From assembly GCF_000353285.1 (NCBI RefSeq), contig NZ_KB731324.1, positions 1,878,577 through 1,942,576 on the forward strand: a stretch of DNA of 64,000 nucleotides, given 5' to 3'. Origin of the DNA: Leptolyngbya boryana PCC 6306. GTDB taxonomy: Bacteria; Cyanobacteriota; Cyanobacteriia; Leptolyngbyales; Leptolyngbyaceae. Below are positions 50,936-63,702 of the stretch, piece after piece (within the stretch, counting starts at the first letter, position 1; each line of letters opens with the position of its first letter). The position numbers and the translations under genes are program-made. The notes beneath the pieces were generated by a model. That model was not told the origin of the DNA, searched no databases, and worked only from the letters and a program-made list of their open reading frames with translations.

Positions 50936-52132
50936 ATGTCTTCCTCATTACATTCTGCTCGACTGATCGAACTTGCGCACCTCTTTCTGAAACTTGGCAC
51001 AATTGGCTTTGGTGGCCCAAATGCCCACATTGCCATGATGGAAGAGGAAGTCGTCGTGAAGCGACAATGGCTCAGGCGCGAAGAGTTCCTCGATCTGATT
51101 GGGGCGACTAACTTGATTCCAGGTCCCAATTCGACTGAGATTGCTATTCATGTTGGGTATCTCTATGCAGGTTGGTTAGGGCTGATCGTAGCAGGGGTGT
51201 GTTTTATTCTGCCTGCGGTGCTGATTACGCTCGGATTTGCCTGGGCTTATGTTGCGTTGGGTGCGCTGCCACAGCTTGCTTTTTTGCTCTATGGCATTAA
51301 GCCTGCGGTACTTGCGATCGTCGTTGATGCCCTGTGGCGATTGGGCAAGAAAGCAGTGAAGAATCGCATATTATTTGCGATCGCGCTGATCGTGATTTTG
51401 CTCGTCTGGTTCGCTCGTGTGAGTGAAATTGTCGCTTTGCTGCTCGGTGGTTTTCTAGGAATGCTCTGGCTGAAAACACCGCACGATCGATCAAACGAGC
51501 AGGCGAATTTATTGATCACAGGGTTGACGCTTACATCGGCTCTGAAAGCAACGGCAGCAGTCGGGCTGACTACCGTTCCATTCTCACTCTGGCAATTAGG
51601 CTGGACATTTCTGAAGATTGGAAGTGTGTTGTTTGGGGGTGGATATGTCTTAATTGCCTTTATTCAAGGATCGTTTGTTGACAATTTGGGTTGGTTAACT
51701 CAGCAGCAATTGTTTGATGCGATCGCAATTGGTCAATTTACACCAGGTCCAATTCTTTCGACAGCAACATTCATTGGCTATGTAATCGGAGGAATTCCTG
51801 GGGCGATTGTTTCGACGATCGGAATTTTCTTACCGTCGTTTGTGTTCGTGGTGCTGCTGAATCCTGTGATTCCGCTCTTACGTCGTTCTGAATGGGCTTC
51901 GGCATTCTTAGATGCAGTGAATGTCAGTGCGGTCGGATTAATGGTTGTCGTAACGGTGCAACTCGCGATCGCAACGCTTGGAAAATCGTCAGCTCCATTT
52001 ATCGATGTTTTAGCAACTATGATCGCACTCATGAGTGCCTTGCTTGCGATTCGATTTCGAGTCAGTGCCGTCTGGTTGGTACTTGGTGGAGCCGCGATCG
52101 CTTGGGCTGCTTCTTGGTTAGGGTATCTATAG
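50936..52132 (+). CDS. chrA: Chromate transporter ChrA family
   Basis: A two-domain CHR-family membrane protein of 398 residues with about ten to twelve helices. Both halves carry the repeat motifs: [18 protein letters not shown] and [13 protein letters not shown] in the first, [16 protein letters not shown] and [17 protein letters not shown] in the second. Homologues export chromate, though many members may handle other anions such as sulfate. It is followed by msrA, an oxidative repair gene, which fits a stress role. Confidence 0.93.
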
Positions 52133-52170
52133 AATGCGATTCTAGATGTAGAGCGTTTCAGAGAGATGAT

Positions 52171-52644
52171 ATGGAAAAAGCAACGTTTGGAGCAGGATGT
52201 TTTTGGGGGGTAGAAGCCGCATTTCGTAAGATTTCGGGCGTGAAATCTACTTCTGTTGGGTATATGGGTGGACATTTCGAGAATCCTTGCTATCTGGATG
52301 TGCTCTCGCGAATTACTGGACATGCGGAAGTCTGCCAAGTTGAATATGATCCGGCACAGGTCAGTTATGAGGCTTTACTGGATGTGTTTTGGCGAATTCA
52401 TGATCCAACGAGCTTAAATCGACAAGGTGCAGATCGAGGCGATCAGTATCGTTCTGTGATTTTTTATCACACCTCAGAACAAGCCGCGATCGCGCGCCAA
52501 TCTAAGCTGGCTTTAGATCGTTCAAACCGCTATGACAAGCCAATTGTGACTGAAATTCAACCTGCTGCTGATTATTGGTTAGCGACAGAGGATCATCAAC
52601 AGTATTTTGAGAAACAAGCCGCACAGAGAGAAGTAGCAACATGA
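52171..52644 (+). CDS. msrA: Peptide methionine sulfoxide reductase A
   Basis: Reduces methionine-S-sulfoxide in proteins. ATG 52171 starts 157 residues beginning [14 protein letters not shown] with the catalytic Cys in [22 protein letters not shown] and [12 protein letters not shown] follow. A longer frame overlapping chrA in another phase is ignored. Its stop overlaps the next gene by 4 bases (ATGA). Confidence 0.95.
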
Positions 52645-53648
52645 TTACAGGCATTTACGATGTGTGCATTGGAGTTTCTGATATCGATAGCGCGATCGCG
52701 TATTGGCAGCAGTTTGGCTACAGTGTGGATCAAACAGGTAGCCTTTCAGCCGAGAGCGCTCAACGGTTATATCAATCAAATTCTGCTTTGCATTCAGTGC
52801 GACTGACGCATCAAACGGCGGATCATGGTTTGATCCGACTCATGCAGTGGGAGCATCCCCGAAATGAAGGCTTAGGGCTGGCATCAATGCGAGTCAGAGG
52901 TAATCGTTGGGCAACGACGATGACAGCAGATGTGCTAACGATTCTCAATCAGGCAGAAGAAGCCGATCGCGCAGGATTTCCAATTCGTTACACAATGCCG
53001 TATTGGGAGATCATTTACAACAAAGATCGCAAGATGCGCCCGTTTCTAGACGATACGATCGGGGTTCGTGAAGCCCTACTATTGCAGCCTTTGACGCGAC
53101 AGGTTTTATTTCAACGCTTTGGGTATAGTGTGCCAAACTATGGGCAGATCAATGAACAATCTGCATTCAAAGCCAGCCAAGTCACTCACATGGGCATGAT
53201 TGTTCAGGATGATAGCAAGGAAACCATCCAGTTTTACGAAGATGTTTTGGGATTGTTGCGAGTGCGGGACGATGTAGAAACGTTCTATGAGTTTTCAGAG
53301 GCGGGGCGCGTGTTTTTTGATTTGCAACCCGGCGAGAAGTTTATTGTGACTGCATTTGATGATCCGCGATCGTCTGCGACAGATTGGCAAGCCGCGCGGT
53401 CTGGACGATTGTACATTGTGAGATTTCCAGAAGCATCTGTAGTCCCAGAGCAGTTTGAGAAGGCACAACCTGGATGTTTAGGAATGTCCTTATATACCTA
53501 TCGAGTTGGGGAGGTTGAGGAATATCGCGATCGCATTCAGGCAAGTTCTGCTCGAAATGTGACTGAAATTTGTTTGGATGAATTTGGCGATCGTAGCTTT
53601 TCTTTTACTGCTCCTGATGGTTACTTCTGGACATTAATCGAGAGTTAA
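52641..53648 (+). CDS. Two-domain VOC superfamily protein
   Basis: A 335-residue protein with two glyoxalase/dioxygenase-fold modules. The first begins [21 protein letters not shown] and the second begins [27 protein letters not shown] metal set may be formed by His and Glu of the second module ([14 protein letters not shown] region), but it is not clear. It overlaps msrA, suggesting one transcript with chrA and msrA. Substrate unknown. Confidence 0.8.
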
Positions 53649-53776: not shown

Positions 53777-54580
53777 CTAAGCCGCCGGAATCGGAAAAGT
53801 CTCCCCCGCCAGATAAGCATCAAAATGCTTCTCAAAGTAAAGCCAAGAAGTCATATCTTCCGTATCTAGCTGATCTGCTGGAGCATCTCGATACAGTGGC
53901 ATTCGCGTATTAATCTCATCTTGAAGCAACTGAGGCAACTGCTCAAAGCCATCGACTTTCTTACCCGTAGCACTGTAGATTAAGTATCCAGCGCGATCGC
54001 CCATTTTCATCCAAGGTAACCAAGGCCCAATGCGATCCCAACTCAGCCAGAGCTTAGAAATCGAGAGGACTTGGTCATCAAATAGCTCATCTGTCGGAAT
54101 CATAAACTTAAACAACTCCGCAGCTTGGTAATCGGGATTGGGGAAGTACTCGGCAAACTTTGGATCAGCAAGGGGACTGGGATAAGCCGGAAAGATATCA
54201 AACGATAGAGTTGTCGTTTCATCATCGACTTGGGCAGGAAACTGTCCTTTGAAAAGTCCTTGAATCGGATTGTTTGCAACATGCATGACGGGCAGAACTT
54301 CCTCAGTCCAGGGATTTTTCCAAGTTTCGAGCTTCTCACCTGTCTGTGGGTCTAAGTAGTACGTTAATTCTCTAGAGGTGAACTTCCAACTATTCTCCTC
54401 AGTGGGAAGACAACGACTCACGCTCATTCCGACCATTTTGAACAAGCGCTGTCGCTTTTCACCAGGGATAAACGAGTGAATCGAACCTGTCCAGATTAAG
54501 AAATTCGATTGCGTCGGGTCGAGCGACGATCGCACTTTTACCCAATGTTTGGCATCGAGAAGCTGAGTTGAAACTGACAT
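53777..54580 (-). CDS. DUF1838 family protein
   Basis: A 267-residue soluble protein matching DUF1838. The family features are WTGSIHSFIPGEKRQRLFKMVGMSVSRC, a YLDPQTGEKLETWKNPWT segment and WLYFEKHFDAYLAGETFP at the end. No catalytic residues are known. No signal peptide here, whereas some homologues are exported. It is divergent from the eleven-gene metabolic region by 125 bases and probably belongs with it. Confidence 0.82.
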   Translation of the reverse strand: MSVSTQLLDAKHWVKVRSSLDPTQSNFLIWTGSIHSFIPGEKRQRLFKMVGMSVSRCLPTEENSWKFTSRELTYYLDPQTGEKLETWKNPWTEEVLPVMHVANNPIQGLFKGQFPAQVDDETTTLSFDIFPAYPSPLADPKFAEYFPNPDYQAAELFKFMIPTDELFDDQVLSISKLWLSWDRIGPWLPWMKMGDRAGYLIYSATGKKVDGFEQLPQLLQDEINTRMPLYRDAPADQLDTEDMTSWLYFEKHFDAYLAGETFPIPAA

Positions 54581-54705
54581 GTCAGGATTCCCCCATGTTG
54601 CACTGCCTGAATTATATTGGCGTTTCTCTCAAGTTTTACAACGCAAGTCGGTGAGAATCGTTGTATCGATGCTAGAATTCACGCGCAATCCTCAGCAGCA
54701 GCACT

Positions 54706-55743
54706 ATGATGATTGACCATGAGCTTGCTTATCAAGCATTAGCACTTCAGGTAACCTGTCATGCGATTAATCAAAGCCGCGATCGACAAGAAGCCCGATC
54801 GCGAATTCAAAGTGCGATCGCGCGGTTAGAACCTCAAATTGCTGCAAGCCTTGCATTTATTGGGTCGAGATGTCGCTTAATTGTTTTGCCAGAATATTTC
54901 CTCACTGGGTTTCCACTGGGCGAATCTCTGGAAGATTGGGCAGAAAAAGCTTGTTTGGAAATGGCAGGTGCAGAGTACGAAGCTTTAGGCAAAATCGCTC
55001 AAACTCATCGAATTTTCTTAGCCGGAAATGCTTACGAAGTCGATCCACATTTCCCAGGCTTATATTTTCAAACTTGCTTTGTGTTAGACCCGAGTGGCTC
55101 AGTTGTTTTGCGCTATCGCCGCTTGAATTCACTGTTTGCGCCTACTCCTCACGATGTGTGGGATCGTTATCTTGATCAGTATGGATTAGAGGGTGTGTTT
55201 CCCGTCGCTCAAACCGAAATTGGCAATCTTGCAGCAGTCGCATCAGATGAGATTTTGTTTCCAGAAGTGTCGCGCTGTTTGGCAATGCGTGGGGCGGAAG
55301 TGTTGCTCCATCCGACTTCTGAAATTTATGGTCAAGCCCGTGCGCCGAAAGAAGCAGCAAAGATTAGCCGCGCTGTAGAAAATATGATGTATGTAATTTC
55401 AGCAAATACTGCCGGAATTGCAGATAGTCCGATTCCCATTTCATCTGTCGATGGCGGGTCTAAAGTTGTCGATTATCGGGGCTTAGTACTCGCAGAAACC
55501 GGGGCGGGTGAGAGTATGGCAGCTTTTGCAGAAGTCGATTTAACTGCTTTGCGCCGCTATCGTCGGCAGCCTGGATTGGGAAATTTACTATCGCGTCAAC
55601 GGTTTGATGCTTATGTGGAGAGCTATCAGAATGCAGAGTTCTATCCTAAGAATACAATGGCAAATGGCGCGATCGAGCGTAAGCATTTTATTCAAACTCA
55701 GTTAGCAACGATCGAACGTTTAGCGAAGCGGGGAGTGATTTGA
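54706..55743 (+). CDS. Nitrilase-superfamily protein with altered catalytic triad
   Basis: A carbon-nitrogen hydrolase fold protein of 345 residues. The catalytic Glu is kept (Glu63 in VLPEYFLTG). The Lys position is Arg139 (RYRRL instead of YRKxHL) and the Cys position is Ser180 (AAVASDEILFPE instead of a CxE motif), so the Glu-Lys-Cys triad reads Glu-Arg-Ser. Surrounding structure is well conserved. It may be a distinct subfamily with changed chemistry, or inactive. It is followed by the aldehyde dehydrogenase after 3 bases, the first pair of the cluster. Confidence 0.82.
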   Translation: MMIDHELAYQALALQVTCHAINQSRDRQEARSRIQSAIARLEPQIAASLAFIGSRCRLIVLPEYFLTGFPLGESLEDWAEKACLEMAGAEYEALGKIAQTHRIFLAGNAYEVDPHFPGLYFQTCFVLDPSGSVVLRYRRLNSLFAPTPHDVWDRYLDQYGLEGVFPVAQTEIGNLAAVASDEILFPEVSRCLAMRGAEVLLHPTSEIYGQARAPKEAAKISRAVENMMYVISANTAGIADSPIPISSVDGGSKVVDYRGLVLAETGAGESMAAFAEVDLTALRRYRRQPGLGNLLSRQRFDAYVESYQNAEFYPKNTMANGAIERKHFIQTQLATIERLAKRGVI

Positions 55744-55746
55744 ACC

Positions 55747-57144
55747 ATGTCAAGCATTCCGGTTCGTAATCCTCGCACAGGAGAGATCGATTACTGGATT
55801 ACTCCTCCAAAGCTTTCTGAGGAGTGCGATCGCTTACGAATGGCTCAACCTGTTTGGGCTGAAAGCTTAGAACAGCGAATCAGTGCACTCCAGCAGTGGC
55901 AACAAGCGATTCAAACTCATCGCGAAGCTTTACTAACCGCATTAGTTGCAGATACAGGTCGATTCGGTGTTTCAGTGCTAGAGATTGATTCTGTACTATC
56001 GAGTCTCGATCGCTGGTGTAAGCTAGCTCCAGAACTGTTACAAGAAATCGAGAAACCTACTGCAATTCCATTCATTCATCTCAAACAAGATTCTGTTCCT
56101 TATCCACTGGTCGGTGTGATCAGTCCGTGGAATTTTCCATTTTTACTAGCAATGATTGATACGATTCCAGCCTTACTTGCTGGATGTGCTGTGATTGTAA
56201 AACCGAGTGAGATTGCACCTCGATTCATTCAACCCTTGTTAAAAACGTTGGATGAAGTTCCGAAACTGCGCGAGATATTTACTGTTATTGAAGGAGCGGG
56301 AGAAACGGGAGCGGCTTTAATCGAGCAGGTTGATTTAGTGTGCTTTACAGGGAGTGTGAAAACTGGGCGAATCGTTGCGGAGGCGGCAGCAAAGCAATTT
56401 ATTCCTGCTTTTTTAGAATTGGGCGGAAAAGACCCTGCGATCGTTCTAAAATCCGCAGATTTAGATCTCGCAACTTCTGCAATTTTATGGGGTTCAGTGG
56501 TTAATACAGGACAGTCTTGTTTGTCGATCGAGCGAATTTATGTGGATCAATCGATCGCTGAACCTTTTACAGAACAGCTCGTTTCTAAAGCAAAACAACT
56601 CAAACTTGCCTATCCAACTGTGAATAGTGGCGAAATTGGGCCAATGATTGCCGAGCGCCAAGCCGCAATTATTTCAGATCAATTACAAGATGCGATCGAC
56701 AAAGGTGCGATCGTTCAATGTGGCGGAAAAGTTGAAAATCTAGCAGGCGGATGGTGGTGCTATCCAACAGTGCTCACGAATGTAGATCACAGCATGAAAA
56801 TCATGACTGAAGAAACATTCGGAGCAATCATGCCGATTATGCCTTTTACAACTGTAGAGGAAGCGGTGCAATTGGCAAACGATACTATCTATGGGCTAAG
56901 TGCAGCCGTATTTGCAGGGTCAGAAACAGAAGCATTATCTGTAGGCGATCGCATTCAAGCAGGTGCAATTAGCATTAACGACGCAGCCTTGACCGCTTTG
57001 ATTCACGAAGGAGAGAAGAATGCGTTTAACTATTCTGGTATGGGCGGATCGCGCATGGGTTCTGCTGCTTTGAAGCGATTTATGCGCAAGAAAGCGTATT
57101 TGATCAAAACAAAACCTGTTACTGACCCTTGGTGGTTTCAATAG
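55747..57144 (+). CDS. NAD(P)-dependent aldehyde dehydrogenase
   Basis: Oxidises an aldehyde to the acid. The 465 residues have the cofactor segment VGVISPWNFPF, VKPSE, FTGSVKTGR, general base Glu in ELGGKDP and the nucleophile Cys in NTGQSCLSIERI. All catalytic parts are intact. SxERIYV and the GMGGSRMG end resemble the succinate-semialdehyde/medium-chain group. It lies 3 bases after the nitrilase gene and 9 before the next, so it is cotranscribed. Confidence 0.95.
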   Translation: MSSIPVRNPRTGEIDYWITPPKLSEECDRLRMAQPVWAESLEQRISALQQWQQAIQTHREALLTALVADTGRFGVSVLEIDSVLSSLDRWCKLAPELLQEIEKPTAIPFIHLKQDSVPYPLVGVISPWNFPFLLAMIDTIPALLAGCAVIVKPSEIAPRFIQPLLKTLDEVPKLREIFTVIEGAGETGAALIEQVDLVCFTGSVKTGRIVAEAAAKQFIPAFLELGGKDPAIVLKSADLDLATSAILWGSVVNTGQSCLSIERIYVDQSIAEPFTEQLVSKAKQLKLAYPTVNSGEIGPMIAERQAAIISDQLQDAIDKGAIVQCGGKVENLAGGWWCYPTVLTNVDHSMKIMTEETFGAIMPIMPFTTVEEAVQLANDTIYGLSAAVFAGSETEALSVGDRIQAGAISINDAALTALIHEGEKNAFNYSGMGGSRMGSAALKRFMRKKAYLIKTKPVTDPWWFQ

Positions 57145-57153
57145 GAGGACACA

Positions 57154-57609
57154 ATGGAAAATATTCGAGAAGAAATGCCTGTTTTAGCTCGACATGAAGG
57201 GGATTGGGTGGGAACCTATACCTTGATCGATTGCGACGGGAATGTGCTCGATCGTCATCGATCGCATTTGACTTGTTCATTTCCAACCGACGATCCGACG
57301 AAGTACTATCAAATCAATCGCTACACTTGGGACAATGGTAAGCAAGAAGAGCATCAGTTTCCAGGAGCTTACTGTGATAAAAAGCTCTGGTTTGATACTG
57401 AGCGCATTAAAGGTCATGCTTGGGAAGTAGACGATTCAACTGTGATTCTGTGGTTTGCTTACAAATCGGTTCCAGATTTCTACCTCTATGAAATGATTCA
57501 GATTAGTCCCTGTAACAATCATCGTGCGCGAACTTGGCATTGGTTCAAGCAGGACAAAATCTATCAACGGACTTTGATTCAAGAAGAACGGCTTAACTCA
57601 ACTATTTAG
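57154..57609 (+). CDS. Small beta-barrel-like protein (DUF3598/lipocalin-like)
   Basis: A 151-residue protein with a lipocalin/FABP-like pattern: HEGDWVGTYTLIDCDGNVLDRH at the start, then alternating strands with many Trp and Tyr (YYQINRYTWDNG, KLWFDTERIKGHAW). Similar N-terminal segments occur in cyanobacterial DUF3598 proteins. It may bind or shape a small ligand. No catalytic motif is seen. GGAGG is well placed before ATG 57154. Confidence 0.65.
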   Translation: MENIREEMPVLARHEGDWVGTYTLIDCDGNVLDRHRSHLTCSFPTDDPTKYYQINRYTWDNGKQEEHQFPGAYCDKKLWFDTERIKGHAWEVDDSTVILWFAYKSVPDFYLYEMIQISPCNNHRARTWHWFKQDKIYQRTLIQEERLNSTI

Positions 57610-57636
57610 CAACTATTTAGCGACTGTATCAGAATT

Positions 57637-58455
57637 ATGGTTTCTCGAATTAAACGTGCTTTTCTCGATACTGAAGATGGTCAAATTCATTACCGCGTTG
57701 GTGGTGAAGGAAAGCCGCTGTTACTCCTCCATATGAATCCTCGTAGTAGTGATGAATATCGCGAATTAATGCCGATATTCGTTCAACAGGGAAGACAAGT
57801 CATCGCGATGGATTTGATGGGATTTGGTGATTCAGATAAGCCACCTCGGTTATATTCCGTGACGGACTATGCTAAAACTGCGATCGCACTGCTTGACGAA
57901 CTTGGCATCGAGAAAACGGATGTTTTAGGCAATCACACAGGCGCATTTGTTTCTGGTGAAATTGCAGTAGCGTATCCTGATCGCGTGAACAAACTAATTT
58001 TGGGCAATGTTGCAGGTTTTGGTGAAGCCGGAAAAGCAGAGCTAATGCGGCGATTTGAAGAAGGCTTTGTGATCAAAGACGATGGTTCTCATCTCATGGA
58101 ACGTTGGCTTGCTCGCAGTCGCTACGTGGGTTCAGCCCAGTTAAATCACCGTTGGGTCTTAGATGATCTCAAGTGTTTCGGCTATCCGTTGTATGCAGTT
58201 TGGGCAGTGGGTAACTATTGCATTGATGCCGCCGAACGATTTCGATCGATTCAGTGCCCAACAATGATTTTGTGGGGCATTGATGATGTGCAAGAATTTG
58301 AGCATTTAGGATTGGCGCTTGCAAAAGATCGTTACTTCGTATCTCAAGCGATTCCCCACGGCAAAGTCGTTGAGATTCAAGGCGGCACAATTTGCATGAT
58401 GAATCAGATTCCAGAACAAATCTCTAAGGTTGTCATTGAGTTTCTAAATGAATAG
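57637..58455 (+). CDS. Alpha/beta hydrolase with His at the nucleophile position
   Basis: A 272-residue alpha/beta hydrolase fold protein. The fold is clear (LLLLHMNPRSSDEYRELM, AMDLMGFGDSDKP, MILWGIDD). The nucleophile elbow reads GNHTG, so His100 stands where Ser, Cys or Asp is usual. The region of the catalytic His reads GGTICMM, with no His. GxHTGA elbows occur in a recognisable subgroup, so this is probably not random decay. Ordinary esterase activity seems unlikely. It is 27 bases after the barrel-like gene. Confidence 0.82.
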   Translation: MVSRIKRAFLDTEDGQIHYRVGGEGKPLLLLHMNPRSSDEYRELMPIFVQQGRQVIAMDLMGFGDSDKPPRLYSVTDYAKTAIALLDELGIEKTDVLGNHTGAFVSGEIAVAYPDRVNKLILGNVAGFGEAGKAELMRRFEEGFVIKDDGSHLMERWLARSRYVGSAQLNHRWVLDDLKCFGYPLYAVWAVGNYCIDAAERFRSIQCPTMILWGIDDVQEFEHLGLALAKDRYFVSQAIPHGKVVEIQGGTICMMNQIPEQISKVVIEFLNE

Positions 58456-58501
58456 CAATCTCAAACGATAGCGATTGTCTTGAAAAATCAGGAGGAAGAC
58501 C

Positions 58502-59452
58502 ATGAACGGCAAACTACCGCTTATCATCGAGTGTCGCAGCAACGATACGGACTACCGTAAGGAGAATCCCAACTGCCCACACAGCCCACAGGAAATCGTT
58601 CGGGAAGCTGTTCGTGCTTGGGAAGCGGGAGCCTCAATCTTTCATTGGCATGGGCGAGATCCAGTTAGTGGTGCGTGGATTAGTGATGTTGACATTTATC
58701 TTGAAGCGATTCAGGGAATTCGAGAAAAGACTGATCTGATTATCAATCCCACGTTGAACTACGTTACCAAACAAAGTCATGTCAGCGATCGCGTCAAGCA
58801 CATCCTAGCAGCAAAAAATAATCCAGCGTTGGGAATTGATATGGTTCCTTTAGAGTTTGGCTCCCTGAATATAGACTTCTGGAACCCACAGACAAAGCAA
58901 TTTCAAACATACGATCAAGTCCATATTAGTTCTCGTGCTTACATGCAAGAAGTTCTAAAAATACTAAAAGAAAACGATATCTTTGTGAGTACAGTCTGTT
59001 GGGATGTGGGACAAATTCGTACAGCGCTCTGCTTTCGAGAAATGGGACTTCTCCCAGAGAATACGTTTTGGGAATTTGTATTCACAGGGGAAATCATGCC
59101 AAGTGGCATTCTGCCAACACTCTCCAATTTACAAGCGGTAGTAGATTCTATTCCCGCAGGTGAGCCTTGGTTGGTGATGTGCTGGAATGGGGACGTGATG
59201 CACTTAGCAGCCTGGGCAATCACACAGGGAGGTCATGTCGGCATTGGATTAGGGGATCATCCTTACACCCGCTTTGGCACACCGCACAATGGCGAGTTAG
59301 TCGAGAAGGTTGCACAGATGGCACATATCCTGGGTCGAGAAGTTGCAACGCCAGCACAGGCTCGCGAGATTCTCAAGATGCCGCCGCGAGATTCTGCAAG
59401 CCATCCAGGGAAACGCTCCTCTCTGGAGGATGAGGTAATAGAGGTAAGGTAG
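58502..59452 (+). CDS. DUF849 / beta-keto acid cleavage enzyme (BKACE) family protein
   Basis: A TIM-barrel protein of 316 residues in the family of 3-keto-5-aminohexanoate cleavage enzyme (Kce), which joins a beta-keto acid and acetyl-CoA. The zinc pair His48 and His50 (FHWHGRDP) and Glu10 are present. In the signature normally HVRVGLEDN, this protein has HVGIGLGDH: the substrate-carboxylate Arg (Kce Arg226) is Gly247 and the zinc ligand Glu230 is Gly251, while catalytic Asp231 is kept as Asp252, and His253 follows. Chemistry is likely modified. AGGAGG precedes ATG 58502. Confidence 0.88.
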   Translation: MNGKLPLIIECRSNDTDYRKENPNCPHSPQEIVREAVRAWEAGASIFHWHGRDPVSGAWISDVDIYLEAIQGIREKTDLIINPTLNYVTKQSHVSDRVKHILAAKNNPALGIDMVPLEFGSLNIDFWNPQTKQFQTYDQVHISSRAYMQEVLKILKENDIFVSTVCWDVGQIRTALCFREMGLLPENTFWEFVFTGEIMPSGILPTLSNLQAVVDSIPAGEPWLVMCWNGDVMHLAAWAITQGGHVGIGLGDHPYTRFGTPHNGELVEKVAQMAHILGREVATPAQAREILKMPPRDSASHPGKRSSLEDEVIEVR

Positions 59453-59516
59453 CAGATGATCGAATTGGCAGTGAAGGTGAGCATCTGCTTTTACTGCCCA
59501 TGAACTCAACAGTAGA

Positions 59517-60524
59517 ATGATGTCAAAAACTTACAAAAAACTGATTGCAACCCGATTGAGTGATGATTTTAGAAGTGCGATCGACATTCAAGAACTCCCC
59601 ATTCCTACTCCAAATTCTGGCGAAATCCTGATTCGCAACAAATTTGCTGGCATCAATGCTGGATTCGATACATTACTATGCAAAGGCAATGTTCCTTACG
59701 TGAATCTCACTCCTCCATTTGATCTCGGTGTTGAAGCAGTTGGCGAAGTTGTAGAAATCGGGGAAGAGGTGAACACGATTCAAATTGGAGATGCCGTCGC
59801 GACCACTGTGCGAGGTGGTGGTTATCGCGAATACCAAGTGATTTCTGCACACCAAGCAATCAAAATTCGCGAAGCTATTCCTGAAGTTCTCACACTGATG
59901 CCTACTGGAATGTCAGCACTCGTTGCCCTCGAAGAAGTTGGAGAGATGAAAAGCAGGGAAACTGTCTTAGTAACAGCCGCAGCCGGAGGTGTCGGACATA
60001 TTGCGGTGCAGCTTGCTAAACTTGCTGGAAATCATGTGATTGGGGTTTGTGGCTCTGAAGTAAAAGCAAAATTGTTGGAAAGTTTGGGATGCGATCGCAT
60101 CATCAATTATCGAAACGAAACACTAGATACTGTTCTCCAACAAGAATATCCCAACGGAATTAATTTAGCTTTTGATTGCGTTGGAAAACAAACTTTCGAT
60201 ACCTGTGTGGAGCATTTAGCAGTTCGAGGGCGATTGGTTGTTGTTGGTTTTATTTCTGAGTATGCGAATGATTTAGAATCTGTGACTCAACCGCGAATTT
60301 ATCAAAAATTGTTTTGGAAATCTGCTTCAGTGAGAGGTTTTTTGATGCCGCACTTTTCTGAATATGCAGAGGAAGCCCGCGATCGCTTACTCGATCTGTT
60401 TTACACAGGTAAGCTCAAGGTTGCGGTTGATCCTAGAGAATTTCATGGCATTGAGGCGATACCGGATGCCGTCGAGTATCTCCTCAGTGGTCAGAACTGC
60501 GGCAAGGTCGTCGTAAAATTCTAG
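59517..60524 (+). CDS. MDR-family quinone oxidoreductase-like protein
   Basis: A zinc-free medium-chain reductase of 335 residues. The substrate domain has GINAGFDTLLCKGN and FDLGVEAVGEVVEIG. The NADPH loop is TAAAGGVGHIAVQLAKLAG, with DCVGKQTFDTC downstream. No zinc-lobe cysteines are present. It is related to zeta-crystallin and PTGR-type enoyl/quinone reductases. Its 3' end overlaps the convergent RidA gene by 4 bases. ATG 59517 and 59520 are equivalent starts. Confidence 0.92.
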   Translation: MMSKTYKKLIATRLSDDFRSAIDIQELPIPTPNSGEILIRNKFAGINAGFDTLLCKGNVPYVNLTPPFDLGVEAVGEVVEIGEEVNTIQIGDAVATTVRGGGYREYQVISAHQAIKIREAIPEVLTLMPTGMSALVALEEVGEMKSRETVLVTAAAGGVGHIAVQLAKLAGNHVIGVCGSEVKAKLLESLGCDRIINYRNETLDTVLQQEYPNGINLAFDCVGKQTFDTCVEHLAVRGRLVVVGFISEYANDLESVTQPRIYQKLFWKSASVRGFLMPHFSEYAEEARDRLLDLFYTGKLKVAVDPREFHGIEAIPDAVEYLLSGQNCGKVVVKF

Positions 60525-60955
60525 GGCATCAGAACGGCTGTACATTTAATTTCTACAATTAACCCAGGAGTCGAAAGCGTTGTCACTCCAACTCCTGTCC
60601 AAGTGGGATAGGGATTCGTAAAATAGCGATCTTTCACCTGCATGAACAACGCGAGATAAGGAATTGTAAAAGGTTGTTGCTCTGATGCAGCATACAATTC
60701 TGGACTCGTCACATGGTAAGTTACCATTTCAACAACATGATCAAACGTTGCACCCGCAGCATCTAAGACTCTTCTGACATTTTCAAAAGTTTGAACAAAT
60801 TGTGCTTCCGGTTCCGTTACGACTTGCATATTTTCATCTCGACCAACTTGTCCAGCGATATACAAAGTGTTACCAATTTTAATACCAGGACAATAATGAT
60901 AGCGTTCGTATAACATTTCCATCCCTTTTGGGACAATGACTTCACGAGTTGCCAT
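60521..60955 (-). CDS. RidA-family protein lacking the catalytic arginine
   Basis: A 144-residue RidA/YjgF/UK114-fold protein, normally a trimer that clears enamines or imines. LYIAGQVGRD and FENVRRVLDAAGATFDHVV are typical. The Arg needed for deaminase activity (E. coli Arg105, in PARS) is Trp119 (YPTWTGVGV). It thus belongs to the Rid groups without proven deaminase activity. ATG 60955 has GAGG upstream; a TTG two codons earlier (60961) is weaker. It lies on the strand opposite to its neighbours. Confidence 0.88.
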   Translation of the reverse strand: MATREVIVPKGMEMLYERYHYCPGIKIGNTLYIAGQVGRDENMQVVTEPEAQFVQTFENVRRVLDAAGATFDHVVEMVTYHVTSPELYAASEQQPFTIPYLALFMQVKDRYFTNPYPTWTGVGVTTLSTPGLIVEIKCTAVLMP

Positions 60956-60991
60956 GATCAACCTCTAGAACAACGTTAGAGCCATTTTAGT

Positions 60992-61387
60992 ATGACCTCA
61001 GAATCTGCCAATACATTAGCTGTTGCTCAGCAAGCATTCACGCATTTTGAGCATGGACTTGCGACCGGAGACTGGCAAGCTTTTTTCGATATGCTGACCG
61101 ATGATTTTTCGTTCTGGTTTCCGCTTGGGAAATTTTTGGGATTAAATGTCGGGAAGGAACGCGCGATCGAGTTTTTTAACTATGTGTCTGAAGTTTACGA
61201 GCAGGGCTTAACATTGACCCTCGATCGTGTCACTAGCAACGAAACGACAGTCGTATTCGAGTTCCGCGATCAAGGACTGATGCGGGGAACGCCGTACAAA
61301 AATCGCGTTGCAGTTTCTTTCGATGTACGCGGAGACAAAATTTGTGGCTATCGAGAGTATCTCGGCAGCGATGGCAAATCGAACTAA
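60992..61387 (+). CDS. SnoaL-like (NTF2-fold) protein
   Basis: A 131-residue protein of the SnoaL/NTF2-like cone fold. AVAQQAFTHFEHGLATGDWQ and MLTDDFSFWFPLG start the domain, and VVFEFRDQGLMRG and FDVRGDKICGYREYL close it. Members act as cyclases, hydratases or isomerases or bind ligands. It diverges from RidA by 36 bases and overlaps the AspH-like gene tail to tail by 4 bases. Confidence 0.82.
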   Translation: MTSESANTLAVAQQAFTHFEHGLATGDWQAFFDMLTDDFSFWFPLGKFLGLNVGKERAIEFFNYVSEVYEQGLTLTLDRVTSNETTVVFEFRDQGLMRGTPYKNRVAVSFDVRGDKICGYREYLGSDGKSN

Positions 61388-62184
61388 GCCCCCAATCCTT
61401 TGTCCCATTCCAACTGATGACTTAGACCATACAGAACAAAGTCTTCAGGCTTGGCTTTGTCATTCTTGCCAAAAACACCCAAGCTATAAGGATCTTCCTC
61501 CATGCGCTGCTTGACTAACTCTTGCTCAAATCGGGCAACGTCTTCTCTCGGCTGATCCGTTTTGAAGAAATCGACGACTAGCACCGTTCTTTCATAGTCT
61601 GTATAGTTATGCGGGCAGTGCGGATAGCTATGATCGAGCACCATAAACTCGCCCTCATGCCAGTACAGCTTGTCATGACAGATTTTCATCGCAATATCGC
61701 CTTCTGGCACAATCAAACCGAGATAGCCCCGATTCATATGGGGATTGTAGTTCACATGCAGCTTCACATCTAACCCCGGCAGAAACGTTCCAAAATAGAC
61801 GTTTCTTAAAACATTCTCATGCAGGGCGTTCGTTTGCGCGATCGCGGTTGCTAGCTTCGGGAAATAGTGATTTCTTAACTCAAGTACTTTTTCCGAGACA
61901 TTCTGTAACTCATACTGCGGATATGTAAGGTGATGTGCCTGAATATATTGTTCAATAAACATTCCTTGAAATAGCACACCAAACGCACTATATTTCGACT
62001 TACCTTTTGTTTTAATTGTTTTACTTTTTGGCCCCATCACATTGAAGGCAAGCTCTATTTCTTCGGGAGAAGCATTCTGCCTGAATGAAATAAATTCATC
62101 TCGAATCGCTTGCCAATTTTCCTGAAGAAGATTTAGGAAAGAAAACTGTTTGGGATCTAAATGATACTCGTTAAACTGTGCCAT
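61384..62184 (-). CDS. Aspartyl/asparaginyl beta-hydroxylase-like dioxygenase
   Basis: A predicted Fe(II)/2-oxoglutarate dioxygenase of 266 residues. The family block runs from VNYNPHMNRGYLGLIVPEG through WHEGEFMVLDHSYPHCPHN to RTVLVVDFF; His in NPHM and His in SYPHCPH are likely iron ligands, with Arg in YERT for 2-oxoglutarate. ATG 62184 (GGGAG 8 bases upstream) is preferred over TTG 62199. It could hydroxylate a small amino-acid-type substrate of the cluster. It diverges from the cyclic amidohydrolase. Confidence 0.88.
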   Translation of the reverse strand: MAQFNEYHLDPKQFSFLNLLQENWQAIRDEFISFRQNASPEEIELAFNVMGPKSKTIKTKGKSKYSAFGVLFQGMFIEQYIQAHHLTYPQYELQNVSEKVLELRNHYFPKLATAIAQTNALHENVLRNVYFGTFLPGLDVKLHVNYNPHMNRGYLGLIVPEGDIAMKICHDKLYWHEGEFMVLDHSYPHCPHNYTDYERTVLVVDFFKTDQPREDVARFEQELVKQRMEEDPYSLGVFGKNDKAKPEDFVLYGLSHQLEWDKGLGA

Positions 62185-62238
62185 AGGTTTTGCTCCCAAC
62201 CTAGAATCTCACTTCATTCTAAGAGCTTTGGAGGCGTT

Positions 62239-63702
62239 GTGAATCTGCTGGATAAACTGATCAAAAATGTGCGGGTTGTCCGCCCCAACCAATCTGAAGT
62301 TGAGTGCCTCGACTTAGGGATCAAAGACGGGAAATTCGTTCAAATTTCACCCGAAATCAGCGCTGACCAAGCCAAAGAAGTCCTCGATGCTCAAAATCTG
62401 CTTGGCTTTCCGGGTGTAGTCGATGCTCACATGCATATTGGAATTTATCGACCCCTTGAACAAGATGCGATCGCAGAAAGTAAAGCTGCTGCAATGGGAG
62501 GCGTAACGACGAGCCTCAATTACATGCGCACCGGACAGTATTACCTGAACAAAGGCGGCTCGTACAAAGATTTTTTTCCAGAGGTACTTTCTCTATCAGA
62601 AGGTAACTTTTTTGTTGACTATAGCTATCACATTGCACCGATCAGTGCTCAACATATTGATGAAATGCAATGGCTATTTGAGCAGCATGGCGTTGCTTCG
62701 TTCAAAATCTTTATGTTCTATGGAGGCTATGGCTTGCATGGTTTGTCTGATCAGCAAAATCTCTTCTTAATGATCAACAAAGAAGAGCGCTATGATTTTG
62801 CTCATTTTGAATTTATTATGCGAGGCTTGTCTAAACTCCGAGAGCGCTATCCCAATGAGGCAATTAGCCTCAGTCTCCATTGTGAAGTCGCTGATATTCT
62901 GAATGCTTACACCAAGATAGTTCAGCAAGATTCAAGTCTCACAGGACTCAGTGCCTATAGTGCTGCGCGTCCTCCACATTCCGAAGGCTTAGCAATTTGT
63001 ATTGCATCTTATCTCGCTCATGAAACGAACTGTATCAATATCAATCTGCTGCATCTGAGTTCTCGTAAAGCGATCGAGGCAGCACTGATGATGCAAACGA
63101 TCTTTCCTCATATCAATTTCAAGCGAGAAGTTACAGTAGGTCATCTTCTCTTAGATGTCGAAACGCCGACAGGCAAATGGGCAAAAGTCAATCCTCCGAT
63201 TCGACCGCGATCGGATGTTGAAGCGCTTTGGAATGCGGTGATTCAAGGTCAGATCGATTGGATTGTCAGCGATCATGCTTGCTGTGCTGCGGAGAAGAAA
63301 GCTAGTCTTCAAGATCCAGACAACATTTGGCTTGCGAAAGCAGGTTTTGGCGGAACAGAATACTTACTGTCTGGAGTGGTCAGTGAAGGGAGCAAGCGGG
63401 GGCTGTCTTACAATCAAATCGCAAAGTTACTGTGCTGGAATCCGGCTCAACGATTTGGATTATCGCAAAAGGGAGATATTGCGATCGACTATGATGCTGA
63501 CCTAGTGCTGGTTGATCCGAATGAAACCTTTGTAGTTCATGCTGCTGAATCTCTGTCACAACAAGGATATACACCGTTTGAAGGGATGGAGCTAACCGGA
63601 CGAGTCAAGCAAACCTTCTTGCGAGGAAACCTAATTTACGATCGAGGACAAATCTTAGGAAACCCGCAAGGGCATTATTTACCGCGATCGCGCAACTTGT
63701 AG
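62239..63702 (+). CDS. Cyclic amidohydrolase (dihydroorotase/hydantoinase type)
   Basis: A metal-dependent amidohydrolase expected to open a cyclic amide, imide or ureide ring. From GTG 62239 it has 487 residues. All binuclear-metal ligands are present: His64 and His66 (DAHMH), carbamylated Lys156 (SFKIFMF), His214 (LHCEV), His272 (LLHLSS) and Asp345 (VSDHA). ARPPHSEG is the dihydroorotase-type substrate segment. The substrate is unknown; length fits hydantoinase/allantoinase better than short DHOases. GGAGG precedes the GTG; a longer frame to 62161 overlaps the divergent gene. Confidence 0.9.
   Translation: MNLLDKLIKNVRVVRPNQSEVECLDLGIKDGKFVQISPEISADQAKEVLDAQNLLGFPGVVDAHMHIGIYRPLEQDAIAESKAAAMGGVTTSLNYMRTGQYYLNKGGSYKDFFPEVLSLSEGNFFVDYSYHIAPISAQHIDEMQWLFEQHGVASFKIFMFYGGYGLHGLSDQQNLFLMINKEERYDFAHFEFIMRGLSKLRERYPNEAISLSLHCEVADILNAYTKIVQQDSSLTGLSAYSAARPPHSEGLAICIASYLAHETNCININLLHLSSRKAIEAALMMQTIFPHINFKREVTVGHLLLDVETPTGKWAKVNPPIRPRSDVEALWNAVIQGQIDWIVSDHACCAAEKKASLQDPDNIWLAKAGFGGTEYLLSGVVSEGSKRGLSYNQIAKLLCWNPAQRFGLSQKGDIAIDYDADLVLVDPNETFVVHAAESLSQQGYTPFEGMELTGRVKQTFLRGNLIYDRGQILGNPQGHYLPRSRNL

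Follow-up and report, generated by a model that had tools for sequence, protein, structure and literature searches.

The 64,000-nucleotide stretch of the Leptolyngbya boryana PCC 6306 genome analysed here (contig NZ_KB731324.1, positions 1,878,577 to 1,942,576; hereafter the window) carries at positions 53777 to 63702 an island of eleven metabolic genes, which is almost certainly a conserved functional module. Mosaic and accessory in character, this catabolic island is inherited as a module, and its clearest enzyme is a predicted cyclic amidohydrolase. We tentatively propose, with somewhat less than even confidence, that the island opens a cyclic imide and then processes the product in the form of a substituted maleate, an origin of the imide from pigment fragments being possible. 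The open reading frames (ORFs) and families of the eleven genes agreed with the original prediction when checked against the ORF list and Pfam; they are given below, together with a neighbouring VOC gene and the abbreviations used in the text.

52641..53648, + strand, VOC (glyoxalase-fold) protein (PF00903)
53777..54580, - strand, DUF1838 protein (PF08894, 350 bits)
54706..55743, + strand, nitrilase-fold protein, NIT (PF00795)
55747..57144, + strand, aldehyde dehydrogenase, ALDH (PF00171)
57154..57609, + strand, single-domain DUF3598_N beta-barrel, calycin-like (PF12204)
57637..58455, + strand, alpha/beta hydrolase, ABH (PF00561)
58502..59452, + strand, TIM barrel labelled 'BKACE', cis-epoxysuccinate-hydrolase-like (PF05853)
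59517..60524, + strand, MDR zinc-type NAD(P)H oxidoreductase (PF00107)
60521..60961, - strand, Rid-family (RidA-type) protein (PF01042)
60992..61387, + strand, SnoaL-like protein (PF12680)
61384..62184, - strand, AspH-like (Asp/Arg hydroxylase) dioxygenase, likely ATG at 62184, ORF to 62199 (PF05118)
62239..63702, + strand, cyclic amidohydrolase of the hydantoinase/allantoinase branch, AMH, likely GTG at 62239, ORF from 62161 (PF01979)

Conservation and co-inheritance of the island

Genome contigs were scanned for AMH, and up to 10 kb was fetched on each side of the best 80 of 577 confirmed candidates, several of which lie on short contigs. AMH itself was clustered in 78 of these 80 loci, because the high-GC genes of L078 and L079 escaped ORF clustering; tblastn shows both. 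Ten further island families were counted per locus, and were found in the following numbers: AspH-like 68, SnoaL-like 36, MDR 34, DUF3598 31, ABH 29, NIT 24, ALDH 24, RidA-type 10, DUF1838 8 and TIM barrel 5. At least three of them accompany AMH in 47 loci, at least five in 25 and at most one in 20. The gene order of L002 and L004 is close to that of the window, both lacking ABH, the TIM barrel and the RidA-type gene, and in the remaining loci the set is reshuffled and extended by other families. Those added, with one member of each checked by Pfam, are two families of DUF4437 cupins (35 and 10 loci), a second MDR (6), an SDR (5), an arylmalonate-decarboxylase/EutA-like protein (4), a PaO-like Rieske protein (6) and a homologue of red chlorophyll catabolite (RCC) reductase (6). 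The AspH-like gene and AMH often occur as a pair without the rest of the island (L016, L024, L026 and other loci), and this pair may thus be a unit of its own.

A census of 386 cyanobacterial genomes, in which 14 of the 16 AMH genomes belong to one family, found AMH in 16 and NIT in 21, the latter including all 16 AMH genomes (hypergeometric probability 2e-24; this value and the one given further below ignore kinship). DUF3598 is present in all 21 NIT genomes and in none of the nine NIT-less genomes tested. In 10 of the 16 AMH genomes NIT lies hundreds of kb from AMH or on another contig, and the co-inheritance of the two therefore exceeds linkage.

The gene-neighbourhood search suggested in the original prediction thus found the families together in many cyanobacteria, in part in Burkholderiales-order genomes and, for three of them, in Nonomuraea; an absence of co-localisation from all other genomes, which would have pointed to a chance grouping, was not observed. 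That unrelated metabolic genes came together by chance is very improbable. The variable gene order, the 20 loci with at most one other island family and the presence of hisS in or near 24 of the 80 loci would fit such an origin, but co-inheritance without adjacency and recurrence in other phyla argue against it.

The loci with hisS in or near the island (L009, L012, L045, L046, L047 and 19 more) belong mostly to Nostocaceae and look as if the island had been inserted at a housekeeping gene. Searching 25 genomes for hisS at 1e-40 gave one full copy in each of 23, one of them with a second short fragment, and no match in the window genome or in genome G461; among the 23 are four of four Nostocaceae that lack NIT. 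A role of HisS as a self-resistance gene was therefore rejected, as it is a single housekeeping copy that NIT-less Nostocaceae have too. The AroA family, found in five loci, is likely a housekeeping neighbour as well and was set aside.

The amidohydrolase and the residue states of the other enzymes

The binuclear metal site of AMH (HxH, Lys, His, His, Asp) is kept in 79 of 79 clustered sequences, the window included, and its residues are intact in 78 cyanobacterial rows (again including the window) and in nine of nine others, which represent eight distinct genes. By these residues, AMH is of the cyclic-amidohydrolase type with a complete binuclear metal site. It resembles the imidase-type cyclic amidohydrolases (dihydropyrimidinase/imidase group) in family and in all metal-site residues but differs from them in reaching no NCBIfam cut-off, and we slightly favour a cyclic imide or a close relative as its putative substrate. 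In the adjacent AspH-like protein, His148, His190 and Arg204 (ORF numbering), three residues whose roles we presume, are found in 69 of 69 sequences. The original prediction of an undescribed route centred on ring opening is supported in part, in that the clearest enzyme of the island would open a cyclic amide or imide and that no description of the island was recognised in the open-licence PMC literature, judged by titles and the openings of abstracts.

It is unlikely, yet worth weighing, that the island instead opens another cyclic amide (hydantoin, dihydropyrimidine, an allantoin-like compound or a lactam) and passes an amino-acid or N-carbamoyl product into metabolism in the manner of the Rut or hydantoin routes. 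Among the NCBIfam matches listed for AMH (25 of 53 families), allantoinase scores best (239.5 bits, cut-off 357.85), followed by hydantoin-5-propionate amidohydrolase (201) and dihydropyrimidinase/D-hydantoinase (187), and these scores make another cyclic amide possible; a hydantoinase/oxoprolinase A/B pair also lies near AMH in Rhodococcus (L082). However, all these scores are below the curated cut-offs, NIT lacks the cysteine that an N-carbamoylase needs, the Rid-family protein lacks the RidA arginine, and the neighbours of AMH in other genomes would suggest branched dicarboxylates rather than amino acids.

Alignment of NIT with solved nitrilases places Glu63, Arg139 and Ser180 at the Glu-Lys-Cys triad, the glutamate being kept and the lysine and cysteine being replaced. 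Both replacements occur in 25 of 25 cyanobacterial sequences and in five of five from outside the cyanobacteria. The default reading of NIT as a half-amidase or N-carbamoylase was rejected, as the catalytic cysteine is replaced by serine. In ALDH, Cys258, Glu224 and Asn129 are intact and kept in 25 of 25 sequences, and its best NCBIfam match is succinic semialdehyde dehydrogenase (346 bits versus a cut-off of 521).

The nucleophile elbow of the window ABH reads G-N-H-T-G, with histidine and no serine. At the nucleophile position, the 39 members of the family carry His (26), Leu (10), Val (2) or Thr (1), and never Ser. HTG is also carried by the two-domain ABHs of three Burkholderiales-order clusters (L108:4470-6221, L110:5290-6996 and L112:5264-6970), and the G-x-H-T-G motif is absent from the single-domain ABHs of L107 and L109. 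The G-x-H-T-G proteins of Burkholderiales-order genomes are about twice as long as the window ABH.

At the position that we take to be the RidA arginine site (Arg105 type, placed by eye), the Rid-family protein has tryptophan in 11 of 11 sequences, and RidA enamine/imine deaminase chemistry was rejected on this ground. The parallel to Rut-type and hydantoin breakdown drawn in the original prediction is thus weakened by the Ser/Arg state of NIT, the tryptophan of the Rid-family protein, the histidine at the ABH nucleophile and the loss of the presumed BKACE residues from the TIM barrel, whose closest solved relative is cis-epoxysuccinate hydrolase. Neither RutA nor dihydropyrimidine dehydrogenase is present among the island genes, as had been noted, the whole genome not having been searched.

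The label 'BKACE' did not hold for the TIM barrel. At the sites presumed to correspond to the BKACE arginine (R226) and third-metal-ligand glutamate (E230), its family has Gly in five and Ala in one of six sequences, and Gly in six of six, respectively; BKACE chemistry was rejected, as both residues are missing. The nearest solved chain is 5zmu, the cis-epoxysuccinate hydrolase CESH[D] (190 bits versus 90 for the next different protein), which is alike over nearly the full length and equally lacks the third metal ligand of BKACE. According to passages of PMC6429283, the third metal ligand of CESH[D] is Glu14. The two histidines are kept in six of six family members, and the site aligned with Glu14 (assuming a tag of 20 residues in 5zmu) is Glu in four and Asp in two, the window protein being one of the latter; it differs from CESH[D] in this respect, and the link to the substrate of that enzyme is putative.

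Relatives outside the cyanobacteria, putative route and possible pigment link

AMH homologues of 56-73% identity were found in six of 399 Burkholderiales-order genomes, a Chloroflexi bin, a proteobacterial bin, and plasmids of Rhodococcus and Streptomyces; a Nonomuraea match from the plasmid collection is 41% identical. Ten of these eleven places were fetched, the one left out being that of Nonomuraea. A hydratase or lyase kit is present in six of the ten (L079, L081, L082, L092, L094 and L095). LeuC- and LeuD-type subunits occur with a flavocytochrome-c-type flavin adenine dinucleotide (FAD) protein in L079, L092 and L094, and a methylisocitrate-lyase-like protein (PEP-mutase type) in L079 and L094 and, together with this FAD protein, in L081. 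LeuC and LeuD are found in L095, and the Rhodococcus locus L082 encodes RipB- and RipC-like proteins, class III coenzyme A (CoA) transferases, MmgE/PrpD, an amidase and an FAD protein of this type.

The NIT of L095 is 49% identical to that of the window, and a DUF1838 relative in the same locus is 38% identical. With this NIT as query, homologues were found in four of 349 Burkholderiales-order genomes and in Nonomuraea, and each of these five genomes has ALDH next to NIT and DUF3598 no more than 17 kb away. The core of NIT, ALDH and DUF3598 thus recurs across cyanobacteria, Burkholderiales-order genomes and an actinomycete. In genome G283, a 48-kb stretch combines AMH, ALDH, NIT, DUF1838, DUF3598 and an ABH relative with LeuC, LeuD, Amidase, PuuE-like, RipB-/RipC-like and CoA-transferase ORFs and a CpeT-family gene. 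In G072, G192 and G223, NIT, ALDH and DUF3598 are kept and AMH was not found at 1e-100, nor in the fetched stretches. A PuuE-family gene is present in all four Burkholderiales-order clusters, with two more each in G072 and G192. As passages of PMC9304392 describe the known cyclic imide hydrolases as relatives of PuuE, it is possible that the clusters lacking AMH still carry another candidate imide opener. The G072 cluster (L107) further encodes an isochorismatase-fold protein as well as hydratase subunits that score above the cut-off in the homoaconitase and LeuD/DmdB families, and a TonB receptor was confirmed by Pfam in one cluster (L108).

Two side observations concern DUF3598 genes of these clusters. 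In the G283 cluster (L100:2149-6209), a carotenoid-oxygenase (RPE65) gene, a truncated-globin-type gene and DUF3034 adjoin the DUF3598 gene; in G072, a second DUF3598-like gene (L113:12395-12904) lies alongside a GntR-like and two MmgE/PrpD-like ORFs, assigned by eye from the ORF starts.

With their transporters, CoA transferases and lyases, the non-cyanobacterial relatives look catabolic. It is improbable that the island makes a small natural product and that the SnoaL-like, AspH-like, calycin and cupin proteins serve to tailor it. In favour of such a biosynthetic cluster, two spirocyclases, OlmO and OssO, are among the weaker fold matches of the predicted DUF3598 model, and the accessory genes differ between strains. 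However, the relatives carry uptake, CoA-transferase and lyase genes, and none of the recurring neighbours (26 non-island families in at least four loci, nine of them run through Pfam) was recognised as a core synthase or precursor gene. The suggestion that the island builds a natural product found no positive evidence, as no polyketide synthase, nonribosomal peptide synthetase or precursor-peptide family was recognised within that same scope. Slightly more improbable still is a detoxification set whose enzymes would break down reactive pigment or carbonyl fragments, namely aldehydes, epoxides and imides, but would yield neither carbon nor nitrogen. The grouping of ALDH, an epoxide-hydrolase-like barrel, a quinone-reductase-like MDR and the VOC protein would suit this purpose, and the island genes of the window include no transporter, but the Burkholderiales-order clusters that share this core encode CoA-ester routes and, in one confirmed case, a TonB receptor, suggesting use as food.

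For the imide-opening route that we prefer, the following steps are proposed. AMH would convert a cyclic imide with a five-membered ring, namely a substituted maleimide or succinimide, to the half-amide, and an amidase would release ammonia, for which the Amidase or the isochorismatase-fold enzyme of the Burkholderiales-order clusters are candidates. In the window, the resulting substituted maleate might be processed via the cis-epoxysuccinate-hydrolase-like enzyme (cis-epoxysuccinate is the epoxide of maleate), ALDH and MDR; elsewhere, homoaconitase/isopropylmalate-type hydratases and methylisocitrate-lyase-like or RipB/RipC-like enzymes might take it up. We give such a substituted-maleate fate of the freed product an even chance. 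With lower confidence, the imides would be one-ring end products of chlorophyll or bilins (hematinic acid, methyl-ethyl- or methyl-vinyl-maleimide), DUF3598 would bind a pigment-like ligand, and the AspH-like, SnoaL-like, VOC and DUF1838 proteins would act earlier, on larger fragments. Hematinic acid, once opened and deamidated, would yield methyl-homoaconitate, which a homoaconitase-type hydratase and a methylisocitrate-lyase-like enzyme could convert to pyruvate and glutarate in proteobacteria.

Parts of this route have parallels in known systems. The 2,3-dimethylmaleate branch of anaerobic nicotinate fermentation uses the hydratase DmdAB and dimethylmalate lyase, and the same families (an aconitase-type two-subunit hydratase and a protein of the PEP-mutase/isocitrate-lyase type) lie beside AMH in L079 and L094. 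Ring opening in that branch is, however, carried out by another amidohydrolase branch, and no nicotinate or B12-mutase gene was recognised, no search having been aimed at them. Genes similar to the RipB-RipC pair of itaconate degradation, with class III CoA transferases, are present in L082 and in the Burkholderiales-order clusters, but score below the cut-offs (RipB-like 149-247 versus 340, RipC-like 155-188 versus 375), and their substrate is probably a larger homologue than that of the itaconate system. The nicotinate pathway of Aspergillus nidulans shares the logic of imide opening (HxnM), amide hydrolysis (HxnN) and a dicarboxylic acid product, and relatives of HxnM, the PuuE-family proteins, also occur in the Burkholderiales-order clusters; in contrast, HxnM is not an AMH-type metal amidohydrolase, and the NIT/DUF3598/AspH core is not mentioned in the passages of PMC9304392 that describe the pathway.

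The possible pigment origin was approached through DUF3598 and RCC reductase. The predicted DUF3598 model is of high confidence (predicted local distance difference test, pLDDT, 93.7; that of DUF1838 was poor, 59.5, and was left unused), and its top Foldseek matches are BFA1 and Npun_R4044 (DUF3598), followed by Ycf58 and the phycobiliprotein lyase CpeS; mycobacterial proteins, nitrobindins, designed barrels and a spirocyclase rank only a little lower. RCC-reductase homologues are present in 13 of the 386 cyanobacteria, nine of which are NIT genomes (hypergeometric probability 4e-10). In eight genomes the match lies a short way upstream of NIT in the same orientation, with 32-201 nt between the matches. 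Passages of PMC2716323 report RCC-reductase-like genes in Nostoc and Anabaena, one of them strongly expressed in hormogonia. The plant PaO and RCC reductase have homologues in relatives of the island and none in the window, and these passages make no mention of a neighbouring island. Hematinic acid and alkylmaleimides are described in parts of PMC7318184 as oxidation products of chlorophyll and heme, hematinic acid having been detected in leaves and maleimides not. The tetrapyrrole link consists of associations (RCC reductase beside NIT, the PaO-like Rieske protein, the calycin fold, the CpeT-family gene and the TonB receptor) and is no more than hinted at; a tetrapyrrole origin of the substrate seems doubtful. 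The still wider idea of a dedicated pathway shared by cyanobacteria, Burkholderiales and actinomycetes, in which linear pigment fragments would be bound and cleaved to substituted maleimides, the maleimides opened and their carbon and nitrogen recycled, with NIT acting through its serine or in a new role, is speculative and slightly less probable again.

Besides the family scores of AMH, where no cut-off of a named equivalog (allantoinase, hydantoinase or dihydroorotase) is reached, a number of observations weigh against imide opening followed by a maleate route, or against its link to pigments. As NIT probably does not act as a normal amidase, no half-amidase is assigned in the window, and the window genome has a weak isochorismatase match and, far off, a 38% identical PuuE homologue. 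The window-type TIM barrel occurs in only five of the 80 AMH loci. Outside the cyanobacteria, the hydratase/lyase kit was not seen in four of the ten fetched loci (L083 of Streptomyces, L093, L096 of Chloroflexi and L097, a 3.6-kb contig), the LeuC of L095 scores as an ordinary isopropylmalate dehydratase, and the NCBIfam scores of the PrpB, RipB, RipC and PuuE matches are below the curated cut-offs. The case for a replacement of AMH by PuuE is weak, since the PuuE-like gene common to the four clusters coexists with AMH in G283, which lowers the probability of an imide and raises that of another cyclic amide; further PuuE-family copies turned up in G072 and G192 only. As for the pigments, the ligands of calycin folds are diverse, and neither CpeT-family nor Rieske genes are pigment-specific. 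No RCC-reductase homologue was found in the window genome at 1e-15, 12 of the 21 NIT genomes lack one, four of the 13 genomes that have one lack NIT, and six of the 15 RCC-reductase places are reported with in-frame stops.

If the proposed route is correct, the island would name genes for the last step of pigment breakdown and would help to place the plant-type RCC reductase that a few cyanobacteria have, a puzzle to which passages of PMC2716323 draw attention. Even with another substrate, a core conserved over three phyla is a target for enzyme discovery, the more so as NIT has serine for cysteine in 30 of 30 sequences and the ABH nucleophile is never serine in 39.

Layout of the island in the window

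The genes are tightly packed, with gaps of 3-125 nt, and the two 4-base tail-to-tail overlaps noticed earlier are present, between the MDR and RidA-type genes (60521-60524) and between the SnoaL-like and AspH-like genes (61384-61387). Three genes rather than two are on the minus strand, namely DUF1838, RidA-type and AspH-like, and the block is therefore made of several transcription units. Divergent pairs are formed by DUF1838 and the run NIT-ALDH-DUF3598-ABH-TIM barrel-MDR, by the RidA-type gene and SnoaL, and by the AspH-like gene and AMH.

The AMH ORF starts at 62161 and would overlap the AspH-like gene, but the majority of homologues align only from residue 27-30 or so. As a GGAGG also precedes it, the GTG at 62239 is the likelier start; with the ATG at 62184 for the AspH-like gene, the divergent spacer is about 54 nt, as measured by eye from the sequence. 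Scans of the window with Rfam and for tRNAs gave no matches.

In L002, L044 and L074 the VOC gene is the immediate neighbour of DUF1838, and L040 carries both within one locus (four of the 80 loci overall); on account of this position it is a twelfth member of the island, outside the range first described. Just upstream of the island, and not counted as part of it, are the chromate transporter gene chrA and msrA (50936-52644), the listed ORF of the latter seeming to start too early.

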